This document shows, piece by piece, positions 12,076 through 15,618 of a stretch of 64,000 nt of DNA. Position numbers and translations under genes: made by a program. This DNA comes from an uncultured Pelagibacteraceae bacterium (lineage in GTDB: Bacteria > Pseudomonadota > Alphaproteobacteria > Pelagibacterales > Pelagibacteraceae): contig CABYLY010000005.1 of assembly GCA_902519945.1 (NCBI GenBank), positions 1-64,000 on the forward strand, in the 5' to 3' direction. Every line of letters begins with the position of its first letter. Position 1 is the first letter of the stretch. The notes below the pieces were generated by a model. It did no database searches. It was not told the origin of the DNA and saw only the letters and a program-made list of their open reading frames with translations.

Positions 12076-12483
12076 TTATTTGGTTATACATTTTTTGCAT
12101 AAACCAAAAAATTCAAGATTATATTTACTATATTTCATACCAGCTTTATCTTTAAAATTTGATAGATACTTTGAAAGATTAGAGTTGCTAATTTCTGTTA
12201 CTTTTTCGCAACTTTCGCATATTGAAAAAGCAGTAGCTTTTGACACCTGACAACTTGAATTTTGACAAGCTATGAAAGCATTTCTACTTTCAATTTTATG
12301 TATTTTTCCTATTTCAACCAACTTATCTAGTGCTCGATAAACTTGTAATGGAGCTTTGATACCTTTTTTTTGAACATTAGAAAGTATTGTATATGCCTTT
12401 AAAGGTTCAGATGACTTATCAATCAAATTAAAAATAATTTGTTGATTTTTTGTTAGATTATGTTCTTTATGCATTTTACTCAC
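12076..12483 (-). CDS. zur: Zinc uptake regulator Zur (Fur family)
   Basis: Zinc-sensing repressor. N-terminal winged helix (QQIIFNLIDKSSEPLKAYTI, then LQVYRALDKLVEIGKIH) and C-terminal dimerisation half with structural zinc pairs CESC and CKKC; NSSCQ and EFFGLC complete the Cys set. Start is GTG at 12483: a GAGGAA ribosome site lies 8 bases ahead of it, better spaced than for the in-frame ATG at 12474. Lies in the znuC-znuB-zur unit, so it is likely autoregulated through the palindrome at 14089-14101. Family membership is firm; the zinc rather than iron call rests on the znu neighbours. Confidence 0.9.
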   Translation of the reverse strand: MSKMHKEHNLTKNQQIIFNLIDKSSEPLKAYTILSNVQKKGIKAPLQVYRALDKLVEIGKIHKIESRNAFIACQNSSCQVSKATAFSICESCEKVTEISNSNLSKYLSNFKDKAGMKYSKYNLEFFGLCKKCITK

Positions 12484-12498
12484 TTTACTGATTCCTCA

Positions 12499-13302
12499 CT
12501 AGTTTTTCAATTTAATAGATTGTTTAATTCTAAATAAAGAAAGTAAAAATAATAGTAAAGCAGCAGTTATAATTGAAGGTCCTGATGATGTATTAAACTC
12601 TAATGATGAAAATAATCCTAAAATAACAGCCAACAATCCGCCTATAATTGAATAGATCACCATACTTTGCGGACTAGTTGAAATATTTCTAGCCATTGCC
12701 GCAGGAATGATTAGCATCCCCGTTATTAATAATAAGCCAATCATCTTGATTGATATAGCAATTAGTGCTGCCATTAAGATTGTAAATATAGCTTTAGCTC
12801 TCTCAGGATTTAAGCCCTCTGCTTCAGCTAATTCATAATTTACTGTTGATGCAAATAAAGGTTTCCATATTAATTTTAGAATAAGAAGAATTAATGCTCC
12901 TCCTATCCATATAATTAATAAATCATTTACTGTCACTGCTAATATGTCACCAAATAATAATCCCATTATATCAAATCTAATAAATGTTAAAAAACCTATT
13001 ACAACAAGTCCAACAGCCAAAGATGAGTGAGCTAGAAGACCCAGCAAGGCATCACCTGGTAAATTAGTTCTTTTTTGAAGTTGTATTAAAGTTAAAGCTA
13101 TTAAAGAGGAAATTATGAAAACTGATAATGCAATATTGAATTCCATTGTAAAGGCTAATGTTACTCCTAATAATGCAGAATGAGCTAAGGTATCACCAAA
13201 ATAAGATAATCTCCTCCAAATTACAAAACAACCAAGAGGCCCTGTTACAAAAGCAACTCCAACTCCAGCTACCAATGCTCTTATAAAGAAATCATCAAAC
13301 AT
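12499..13302 (-). CDS. znuB: Zinc ABC transporter permease ZnuB
   Basis: Inner-membrane permease of ABC-3 type with about eight hydrophobic helices over 267 residues. Family features include GPLGCFVIWRRLSYFGDTLAH near the N-terminus, SSLAVGLVVIG, and the coupling region ANYELAEAEG-like sequence VNYELAEAEGLNPERAK, then LITGMLIIPAAMARN. Directly abuts znuC (stop at 13303). Works with ZnuA and ZnuC to import Zn2+ from the periplasm. Manganese permeases are related; the His/Asp-rich ZnuA and Zur favour zinc. Confidence 0.93.
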   Translation of the reverse strand: MFDDFFIRALVAGVGVAFVTGPLGCFVIWRRLSYFGDTLAHSALLGVTLAFTMEFNIALSVFIISSLIALTLIQLQKRTNLPGDALLGLLAHSSLAVGLVVIGFLTFIRFDIMGLLFGDILAVTVNDLLIIWIGGALILLILKLIWKPLFASTVNYELAEAEGLNPERAKAIFTILMAALIAISIKMIGLLLITGMLIIPAAMARNISTSPQSMVIYSIIGGLLAVILGLFSSLEFNTSSGPSIITAALLLFLLSLFRIKQSIKLKN

Positions 13303-14064
13303 TTAATTTTTTTTTATTTCACCTTCATCAGTATGAATATGGTCATGCCTATGCTCATACCTTGATAGTATTTCTGAAGCTTGTTCACCAAATAAAGCTT
13401 TGTATTCGTTATTTTTTGCAACATCCATCGGCGATCCTGAACAACATACATGACCGTTTAAACAAACAACATGATCTGTTGCACTCATTACAGTATGTAA
13501 ATCGTGTGATATCAATAAGATTCCACAATTTAATTCATCTGTAATCTTTTTAATAAGTTTGTATAAAGCGATTTCACCAGTATAATCAACTCCTTGAACT
13601 GGCTCATCTAATACCAATAACTCAGGTTTTTTTGAAATAGCTCTTGCAAGTAATACTCTTTGGAATTCACCACCAGATAAGTCTCCTAAACTTTTATCTT
13701 TAAGATGAATAACACCAGTTAATGACAAAGCTTCATCTATTGTTTCTTTATTAAGATTTTCTGTTAACACCATGAAATCATTTACTCTTAGTGGTAATGT
13801 CCAATCAATTGAAATTTTTTGTGGAACATAACCAACCTTATTTGTGTATTTCTCAACAGTGCCATCAATTTTTTTATAAATACCTAAAGCAATTTTAGCT
13901 GTTGTGCTTTTTCCTGATCCATTTGGACCAATAAGAGTAACAATTTTTCTTTTTTCAACTTGTAGTGATACTCCTTTTACAAGCCACTTACTATTTAAAC
14001 AAAACCCAGCATTATTTAGTTTTACAAGTATATTTTGATTAGAGTCCATTTTATTTCTTGACAT
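13303..14064 (-). CDS. znuC: Zinc ABC transporter ATPase ZnuC
   Basis: ATPase for zinc import. Walker A GPNGSGKST, signature DLSGGEFQRVLLARA, Walker B LLVLDEPVQGVD and switch His in LLISHDLHTV are all intact. The C-terminus is His-rich (YEHRHDHIHTDEGE), typical of ZnuC and possibly a metal sensor or buffer. ATG at 14064 or an in-frame ATG at 14049 could start it; the conserved part begins after both. First gene of the minus-strand znuC-znuB-zur-DUF3147 unit, starting 25 bases from the Zur-like box. Confidence 0.94.
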   Translation of the reverse strand: MSRNKMDSNQNILVKLNNAGFCLNSKWLVKGVSLQVEKRKIVTLIGPNGSGKSTTAKIALGIYKKIDGTVEKYTNKVGYVPQKISIDWTLPLRVNDFMVLTENLNKETIDEALSLTGVIHLKDKSLGDLSGGEFQRVLLARAISKKPELLVLDEPVQGVDYTGEIALYKLIKKITDELNCGILLISHDLHTVMSATDHVVCLNGHVCCSGSPMDVAKNNEYKALFGEQASEILSRYEHRHDHIHTDEGEIKKN

Positions 14065-14088: not shown

Positions 14089-14101
14089 GTTATATTATAA
14101 C
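14089..14101. promoter_or_regulatory. Zur-box candidate between znuC and znuA
   Basis: GTTATATTATAAC is a perfect palindrome (6-bp arms around one T). It sits in the 55-base spacer between the divergent znuC and znuA starts, so one site could repress both units. The sequence agrees with the GTTATAnTATAAC core I recall for alphaproteobacterial Zur sites. The same core recurs at 15605-15617. Confidence 0.8.
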
Positions 14102-14119
14102 ATATTAACTATACAACAT

Positions 14120-15175
14120 ATGAAAAACATTCAAAAATTACCGTTTATATTAACAATATTATCATTCTTAACTATCTTTACACCTGCTAATGCTGAAATT
14201 AAGGTAGTAGCATCAATAAAACCAATTCATTCACTTGCAAGCTATTTAATGGATGGCGTTGGTAAACCTGATTTAATTGTTGATGGTTATGCTTCACCAC
14301 ATGGATTTGCACTAAAGCCATCTCATGCAAAAATGATTCAAAATGCAGATATTATATTTTGGGTAGGTGAAGACATAGAAAGCTTTTTAGAAAAACCATT
14401 AAAATCAATTGCAAAAAAAGCTGAAAAAATTGAATTAATGGAAATTAAAGGGATAACTAAACTAAAGTTTAGAGAAAGAAATATTTTTGAAGGTCATGAC
14501 GATCATGGTCATAAAGAAGACGATCACGATGATCATGCAAAGAAAGAGGACGATCATGATGATCACGATCATGACAAAAAAGAGAAAGAACATGGTCATG
14601 ACGAACACGGACATGATGATGATCATAAAAAAGATGGTCACGATGATCATGGACATGAAGGCCACGCACATGGTGAACATGATCCACACATTTGGTTAGA
14701 TCCAATGAATGCAAAAGTAATTTTAAGTGAAATGGCAGAACATTTAATTGAGAATGACTCAAAAAATGAGGCTAAATATAAAGAAAATTTAAAAAAGGCC
14801 CATAAAGATTTAGATAAACTTACTAAAAAAGTAAAATCGGAATTAAATAAAGATTTTAAATCAATAGTTTTTCATGATGCATATCAATACTTTGAAAAAA
14901 GATTTGGAATTAATATTTTAGGTGCATTTACAGTTAATACAGACGTAATGCCTGGTGCTGAGCAATTAGCTGAAATTAGAGAAGTAATTGAGCATGACAA
15001 AGTAAGTTGTATTTTCTCAGAGCCTCAATTTAATCCTGATATCATTAAAGCTGTAGCAAAAGATACCAACGTTGCAACAGGGGTCATTGATCCATTAGGA
15101 GCTACTCTTAACCCTGGAAAAGATTTATATTTTGATTTAATTGGTAACATGTCTAAGTCATTTCAAGGCTGTTAA
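14120..15175 (+). CDS. znuA: Zinc-binding periplasmic protein ZnuA
   Basis: Solute-binding protein delivering Zn2+ to ZnuBC. A signal peptide covers residues 1 to about 25 (cleavage after PANA). Ligand His residues occur in IKPIHSLA, DPHIWLDP and VFHDAYQYF, with Asp in GVIDPLG. Between residues about 124 and 190 lies a very long His/Asp/Lys-rich loop (GHDDHGHKEDDHDDH and so on), typical of ZnuA but extended. Ends with the usual DLYFDLIGNMSKSF. Divergent from znuC over the Zur-like box. A decayed second copy of its 3' end lies 570 bases downstream. Confidence 0.95.
   Translation: MKNIQKLPFILTILSFLTIFTPANAEIKVVASIKPIHSLASYLMDGVGKPDLIVDGYASPHGFALKPSHAKMIQNADIIFWVGEDIESFLEKPLKSIAKKAEKIELMEIKGITKLKFRERNIFEGHDDHGHKEDDHDDHAKKEDDHDDHDHDKKEKEHGHDEHGHDDDHKKDGHDDHGHEGHAHGEHDPHIWLDPMNAKVILSEMAEHLIENDSKNEAKYKENLKKAHKDLDKLTKKVKSELNKDFKSIVFHDAYQYFEKRFGINILGAFTVNTDVMPGAEQLAEIREVIEHDKVSCIFSEPQFNPDIIKAVAKDTNVATGVIDPLGATLNPGKDLYFDLIGNMSKSFQGC
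14491..14690 (+). repeat. Imperfect GAY-CAY codon repeat inside znuA
   Basis: About 200 bases made largely of Asp, His, Gly and Lys codons in degenerate units such as GATCATGACGAACACGGACA. It encodes the metal-binding loop of ZnuA. Such repeats expand and contract by slippage. It also produces spurious open frames on both strands that should not be annotated. Confidence 0.75.
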
Positions 15176-15184
15176 AAATATACC

Positions 15185-15562
15185 TTAAAGTGTTATTACT
15201 TGATCTGGTGGATTTGAACCTAGAGCAGAATACAATTGTGGGAAGCAACCAGCAACTACACCATCAACTAAACCCTTCGCCTTAACATCACCACTTCCAC
15301 ATTGCTCAAATGTACCATCAGCTAAACCTCTTCTCACCGCACACTGATCGCAAACCATCAACAACATTTTTTTTTCTTTTGCAATCTTTGCTAAACGTTC
15401 GCCAATAGGATTACCTTTTTGTAAACAAAAAATGTTATCATCAAAGAAAAACATTCCCAAAACATTTACCAAGTGTTTATTTTCCTCTAGCTGAGGTAAT
15501 ATCATTGAGCTTAATTGATAAGTACTCGACATATTGTTTCTAAATACATACGCAACCTTCAT
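15185..15562 (-). CDS. DsrE-family protein with its own Zur-like box
   Basis: 125-residue cytoplasmic protein of the DsrE/DsrF-like sulfur-transfer fold: N-terminal beta strand KVAYVFRN, then MFFFDDNIFCL, GERLAKIAKEKKMLLMVCDQ, and a Cys-containing segment CDQCAVRRGLADG. More Cys residues occur in FEQCGSGD and VAGCFPQ. An exceptionally clear SD (AAAAGGAG, 15568-15575) lies just before the ATG. Convergent with znuA (9-base gap). The palindrome at 15604-15618 lies 42 bases before the start, so zinc-starvation control is likely. Biochemical function unknown; thiol-based metal or sulfur handling is a guess. Confidence 0.82.
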   Translation of the reverse strand: MKVAYVFRNNMSSTYQLSSMILPQLEENKHLVNVLGMFFFDDNIFCLQKGNPIGERLAKIAKEKKMLLMVCDQCAVRRGLADGTFEQCGSGDVKAKGLVDGVVAGCFPQLYSALGSNPPDQVITL

Positions 15563-15603
15563 ATTTTCTCCTTTTAGTATAATTATTATTATATAATTCT
15601 AGA

Positions 15604-15618
15604 TGTTATATTATAACA
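15604..15618. promoter_or_regulatory. Second Zur-box candidate upstream of DsrE-like gene
   Basis: TGTTATATTATAACA is a perfect 15-base palindrome containing the same 13-base core as the site between znuC and znuA. It lies 42 bases ahead of the DsrE-like start on the minus strand. A 13-base exact recurrence about 1.5 kb away beside zinc genes is unlikely to be chance, even in AT-rich DNA. Confidence 0.75.

Follow-up and report, generated by a model that had tools for sequence, protein, structure and literature searches.

Introduction

Zinc is very scarce in surface seawater, where SAR11 are among the most abundant bacteria. According to one study, no more than about half of the SAR11 genomes available at the time had the zinc-uptake gene znuA, for reasons that the study left open (PMC4771312). 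A proteobacterial Zur box of the type GTTA-N5-TAAC has been published (PMC4176598), and the SAR11 box dealt with here is of the same type; Haas et al. 2009 (PMC2770081) list COG0523 and DUF1826 among the members of Zur-regulated clusters. Our search of the literature found no paper joining either COG0523 or znuA with DsrE. Among the proteins sharing the DsrE fold, Cys78 of A. vinosum DsrE is known as the persulfide cysteine, and SAO denotes a Sec-assisted organometallic system, reportedly described by Haft and Gwadz in 2023. The SAO operons are selenoprotein organometal operons (PMC13188914); the membership of SaoD in them was read from the NCBIfam name NF040732.

The DsrE-fold gene and its neighbours

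The window, i.e., the whole stretch of 64,000 nucleotides analyzed here, comes from an uncultured Pelagibacteraceae bacterium and carries the following features:

12076-12483, minus strand: zur-like Fur-family regulator gene (Pfam FUR), adjoining znuB
12499-13302, minus strand: znuB, zinc ABC permease (Pfam ABC-3; best NCBIfam match ZnuB)
13303-14064, minus strand: znuC, zinc ABC ATPase (best NCBIfam match ZnuC, 262 bits)
14089-14101, no strand: 13-base operator core GTTATATTATAAC, first copy, located in the promoter region between the divergent znuC and znuA
14120-15175, plus strand: znuA, zinc-binding protein (Pfam ZnuA 204 bits; NCBIfam ZnuA 289 bits, exceeding the cut-off of 268)
15185-15562, minus strand: gene for a DsrE-fold protein of 125 aa, NCBIfam NF040913 (DsrE_rel_ELSE, 'SaoD/DsrE family protein')
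15568-15572, minus strand: Shine-Dalgarno AGGAG, 5 bases 5' of the DsrE ATG, read from the sequence
15604-15618, no strand: Zur-type operator palindrome TGTTATATTATAACA, 41 bases 5' of the DsrE ATG, kept in all family orthologs

The product of the DsrE-fold gene, whose ATG is at 15562, matched NF040913 over its full length in the NCBIfam profile search (197.8 bits, cut-off 152), and its Pfam DsrE match was at the cut-off. Its neighbours are znuABC, the zur-like gene and a dehydrogenase gene. The zur-like protein had PRK11639 Zur as its best NCBIfam model (70 bits, under the cut-off of 167) and only two matches in the PDB, namely 4mtd (E. coli Zur, E 2e-11) and the Fur-family regulator 7dh7 (E 1e-17), known as Xanthomonas Zur. 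The znuA product has a long His/Asp-rich loop (14462-14700 of the window), as in zinc-binding ZnuA proteins.

A preliminary description of this locus had placed a palindrome 42 bases ahead of the DsrE-like gene; the palindrome is there, at a distance of 41 bases. The exact 13-base core said to be shared with the znuC-znuA interval was recovered, GTTATATTATAAC inside TGTTATATTATAACA being identical to 14089-14101, and at 15 bases the two sites differ in the outer base (CGTTATATTATAACA vs TGTTATATTATAACA). The same description is also borne out as to the presence of a Shine-Dalgarno sequence, the convergence with znuA (the two gene ends lie 9 bases apart) and the several Cys residues of the product, of which we counted five.

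Conservation of the operator in SAR11

The family sample consisted of 297 Pelagibacteraceae genomes, ten of which harbor an NF040913 gene, and a wider scan of 84,980 genomes yielded 80 NF040913 loci, a few being from the same genomes as the family ten. The scan of orthologs for the palindrome that had been proposed in the preliminary description found it 5' of the gene in 10/10 family orthologs, at a distance of about 35-70 bases, and at 13-15 of 15 matching positions in 32 Pelagibacteraceae-labelled loci of the wider scan, several of which carry two tandem boxes; two SAR11-labelled loci (L120 and L093) have TGTAATATTATTACA and TGCAATATTATTGCA, respectively, in place of the usual palindrome. 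The boxed DsrE gene occurs at six or more different places on the chromosome (next to znuA, following zur, next to a DUF779-like gene, next to sugar-transport genes, and others), which implies that the box travels with the gene and is not bound to the znu locus. Reading the aligned orthologs showed that in the best promoters (L079 and L081) the box occupies the 17-base spacer of TTGACA-TATGAT, a position expected of a repressor site. Scans with a consensus promoter returned sites no more numerous than in shuffled sequences.

The co-occurrence of DsrE and znuA in the family is uninformative (9/10 DsrE carriers vs 210/297 genomes with znuA). One genome (G054, assembly 76% complete) has the boxed DsrE gene with no ZnuA hit and a single FUR hit. 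A phylum-wide sample gave only one further NF040913 member (L016), which lies beside an ABC permease gene and is devoid of the Cys88 stretch. In another genome (G123, loci L168 and L014) a COG0523 gene lies downstream of znuA under the box, and the boxed DsrE gene of G123 carries a frameshift near an A run, either real or a sequencing error.

The gene has a conserved operator that matches the zinc regulon of its own lineage, and it lies in zinc gene neighbourhoods; on this basis we consider it highly probable that Zur represses the DsrE-like gene and that it serves under zinc limitation, both binding and derepression being predictions. According to this model, when zinc is plentiful the zinc-loaded Zur predicted at 12076-12483 would occupy both palindromes (14089-14101 and 15604-15618) in the promoter regions and so switch off znuCB-zur and znuA along with the DsrE gene, all of which would be released once zinc is exhausted. 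For a study based on sequences alone, the regulation of this gene appears close to settled.

The protein and its possible role

The protein has Cys at positions 46, 71, 74, 88 and 106; H30, C71, C74 and C106 are invariant in 44 sequences, and C88 is present in 43 of them. Its identity to the other 125-residue relatives is at least 69% across phyla, and 60% to the shorter L016 protein. The AlphaFold2 model (mean pLDDT 94.9) has YchN, DsrE, TusD and MTH1491 as its best fold matches (Z about 11). The topology suggests that one edge of the sheet brings together C71 (at the end of strand 67-71), C74 (in the opening turn of the helix that follows) and C106 (directly after strand 102-105).

The product is a small soluble DsrE-fold protein with invariant Cys71-x2-Cys74 and Cys106 and a near-invariant Cys88, predicted to act when zinc is short; its thiols might hold Zn(II), or take it over from pools of thiols, and then transfer it in starved cells, partnered by a COG0523/ZigA GTPase in genomes that have one and, in most SAR11, without it. 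That the protein carries zinc or thiol-bound zinc is a proposal we make tentatively, the biochemistry being extrapolated from these features. Somewhat more speculative is the possibility that NF040913 as a whole represents a cross-phylum zinc-starvation family, in which the DsrE sulfur-relay fold was turned into a zinc or zinc-thiolate carrier feeding or replacing COG0523 GTPases.

The main rival of the zinc-carrier role is a sulfur relay, in which the gene would still be under Zur control and Cys71 would take up sulfane sulfur, like Cys78 of DsrE, and hand it on. Under zinc shortage this could, for example, restore thiol or Fe-S functions, or take the place of a sulfurtransferase that depends on zinc. 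This alternative draws on the DsrE/TusD/YchN fold and on the alignment of C71 with cysteine 78 of A. vinosum DsrE (2hy5_A) in a profile alignment, a weak match (E 0.3). We regard it as rather unlikely, since a DsrC/TusE homolog was found in 0/8 SAR11 genomes searched (the source assembly being 78% complete), the neighbours in other phyla are zinc genes and not sulfur-relay genes, and a one-cysteine relay leaves three further conserved Cys unexplained. A relay of the TusBCDE type in SAR11 was rejected on the same search for the DsrC/TusE partner.

Gene company and operators in other lineages

In 17/79 loci a COG0523 GTPase gene is found no more than a few kb from the DsrE gene, and in about half of these loci it is the next gene on the same strand; the one partner that was scored is closest to ZigA (592 bits, cut-off 600). 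Other DsrE loci have genes for a HisI-type cyclohydrolase, DUF1826, DUF1636 or a dCTP deaminase-like protein, and znuABC, HisI or DUF1826 genes accompany DsrE in several phyla; znuABC/zur genes are near it in L135, L141, L148, L149, L155 and L156, and in L149 DsrE follows znuA by 6 bases, with a canonical box between zur-znuCB and znuA.

The operons or boxes common to DsrE and HisI-type or FolE-type genes in other lineages might also suggest that the protein, rather than carrying zinc, spares it by standing in for some zinc enzyme, as supposed for HisI2 or FolE paralogs. Such a role is, in our opinion, improbable: stand-ins lose their metal ligands, whereas here the Cys residues are invariant, and we know of no zinc enzyme of the DsrE fold.

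The operators point back to Zur control. Two genomes each contain exactly two copies of TGCAATANTATTGCA, one before DsrE-COG0523 and the other before zur-membrane protein-ZrgA; the SAR116 locus L135 has four related boxes (of the YAATGTTATAACATTR type), at COG0523/folE, zur-COG0523, DsrE-DUF1636-znuCB and znuA, and the box at DsrE is retained in other SAR116 genomes; lastly, in a Marinimicrobia genome TGCAAYTNARTTGCA precedes DsrE and also separates a Fur-type gene from a COG0523 gene. In all three of these lineages, which lie outside the main SAR11 group, the DsrE box changed along with the zinc-operon box, and the DsrE operator thus appears to follow the host's own regulator. The loci of Gemmatimonadota, Planctomycetota and SAR324 showed no comparable box at DsrE. 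The protein tree, many forks of which are weak, intermixes the sequences of SAR11, SAR116, Marinimicrobia and Verrucomicrobia, and this suggests that the gene may have spread by horizontal transfer and later taken on the operator of its host.

Other genes were seen in the same surroundings. The palindrome TGCAAYTNARTTGCA also lies ahead of a MerC-like membrane protein gene in Marinimicrobia (L198:387-875). A His-rich protein resembling an outer-membrane barrel, without a Pfam match, is encoded after DsrE in L086 (6001-7552, 32 bases after DsrE) and L090, and its homolog in L149 (1824-3056) is under a TGTTATAACATAACA box of its own; it is a candidate zinc-regulated outer membrane protein.

The regulator and the palindrome

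There are three Fur-family regulators per SAR11 genome, so that the one reading the box was assigned by gene linkage. The box is upstream of znuA in 29/30 family loci (14 or 15 of 15 matches), and in family members without ZnuA the palindrome, often in the form of the 20-mer TGTTATGTTATAACATAACA, immediately precedes a zur-like gene, after which comes a gene for a small membrane protein. It might be argued that another Fur-family regulator, of the iron/manganese type or Irr-like, reads the palindrome and that the DsrE gene answers to another metal, given the number of these regulators and the broad likeness of Fur-family operators. The position of the same box at znuA/znuC and directly 5' of the zur-like gene in znu-less genomes, as well as the variant boxes that other lineages have in front of their folE, COG0523 and ZrgA operons, makes this very improbable.

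In the genomes without znuABC, the Zur-type box stands 1-10 bases ahead of the zur-like gene (L048:1501-2370, L066:1501-2273, L069, L075, L172, L176 and L178, and also L160 and L161). The membrane protein encoded after it has 124-157 aa, invariant His/Asp and a His-rich tail; it gave weak Pfam Mntp/ZIP scores, matched no NCBIfam model and has an AlphaFold model with a pLDDT of 64. As a candidate miniature zinc permease it could replace ZnuABC, and the operon of another lineage adds ZrgA. Its gene follows the box directly, without zur, in L054 (1118-1515), and is present in two copies after zur in L064 (313-1520). In two genomes of a related genus (L183:1501-1515 and L175:1501-1515), a second exact box lies just 5' of a gene resembling a bile-acid/sodium symporter (281 aa).

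Within the whole 1,008,417-base assembly the exact 13-base core has only two copies, at the znuC/znuA and DsrE promoters; Markov models of order 1-3 predict 0.009-0.012 exact copies of GTTATANTATAAC per 64 kb, where 2 were found. The two sites with one mismatch are both at unrelated genes, a tsaB-like/polysaccharide-deacetylase pair (L003) and a nuo operon (L004), and were rejected as further regulon members, being probably due to chance. There is next to no likelihood that the palindrome copy arose by chance or by duplication of the nearby znu promoter: the two copies do lie no more than 1.5 kb apart in the source genome, but the copy count and the Markov expectation rule out the former, the presence of the boxed DsrE gene at many unrelated chromosomal sites rules out the latter, the host-specific box variants of other lineages speak against both, and ortholog conservation has already refuted this reading.

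Significance

The preliminary description had seen in this gene a possible new zinc-starvation gene, and this idea withstood the refuting condition set in that description, orthologs devoid of the palindrome; it is supported by the box of the orthologs, by the lineage-specific operators common to DsrE and Fur-family/zinc operons, and by the linkage across phyla to ZigA/COG0523, znuABC, HisI and FolE-type genes. The DsrE-fold gene thus appears to belong, as a member not assigned before, to the zinc-starvation regulons of marine Alphaproteobacteria and, judging from gene company, of several other phyla, and very probably represents a new, widely shared means of living with little zinc. No earlier mention of a link between the NF040913 protein and zinc starvation was found in the literature searched. 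A family without an assigned role can now be examined within a specific pathway, and one such test would serve several phyla; if the zinc-carrier role were true, it would give the DsrE fold a new job and the COG0523 chaperones a likely partner.

Comparison with known systems

The window protein shares with the DsrE/TusD/YchN sulfur-relay proteins the fold and the position of the persulfide cysteine, but it differs from them in its conserved CxxC, Cys88 and Cys106, in the lack of a detected DsrC/TusE partner in the SAR11 genomes searched, and in having the operator and the neighbours of zinc genes. With SaoD (NF040732) it belongs, through NF040913, to one protein family; unlike SaoD, it has an extra stretch bearing Cys88 and its gene lies among zinc-uptake genes. 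Membership in the SAO system was rejected because the protein reached 121 of the 169 bits of the NF040732 cut-off and because of its neighbours in the window. The COG0523/ZigA zinc metallochaperone GTPases are frequent neighbours of the family, whereas the DsrE protein has another fold and is no GTPase, and a clear COG0523 gene is absent from most SAR11 DsrE carriers. Finally, although no DsrE-family member was found in the Zur or COG0523 literature searched, the SAR11 locus resembles the Zur regulons of E. coli and Caulobacter in its operator of the GTTA-N5-TAAC type and its znuABC and zur-like genes, a likeness to which other lineages add COG0523, HisI and FolE as the company of DsrE.
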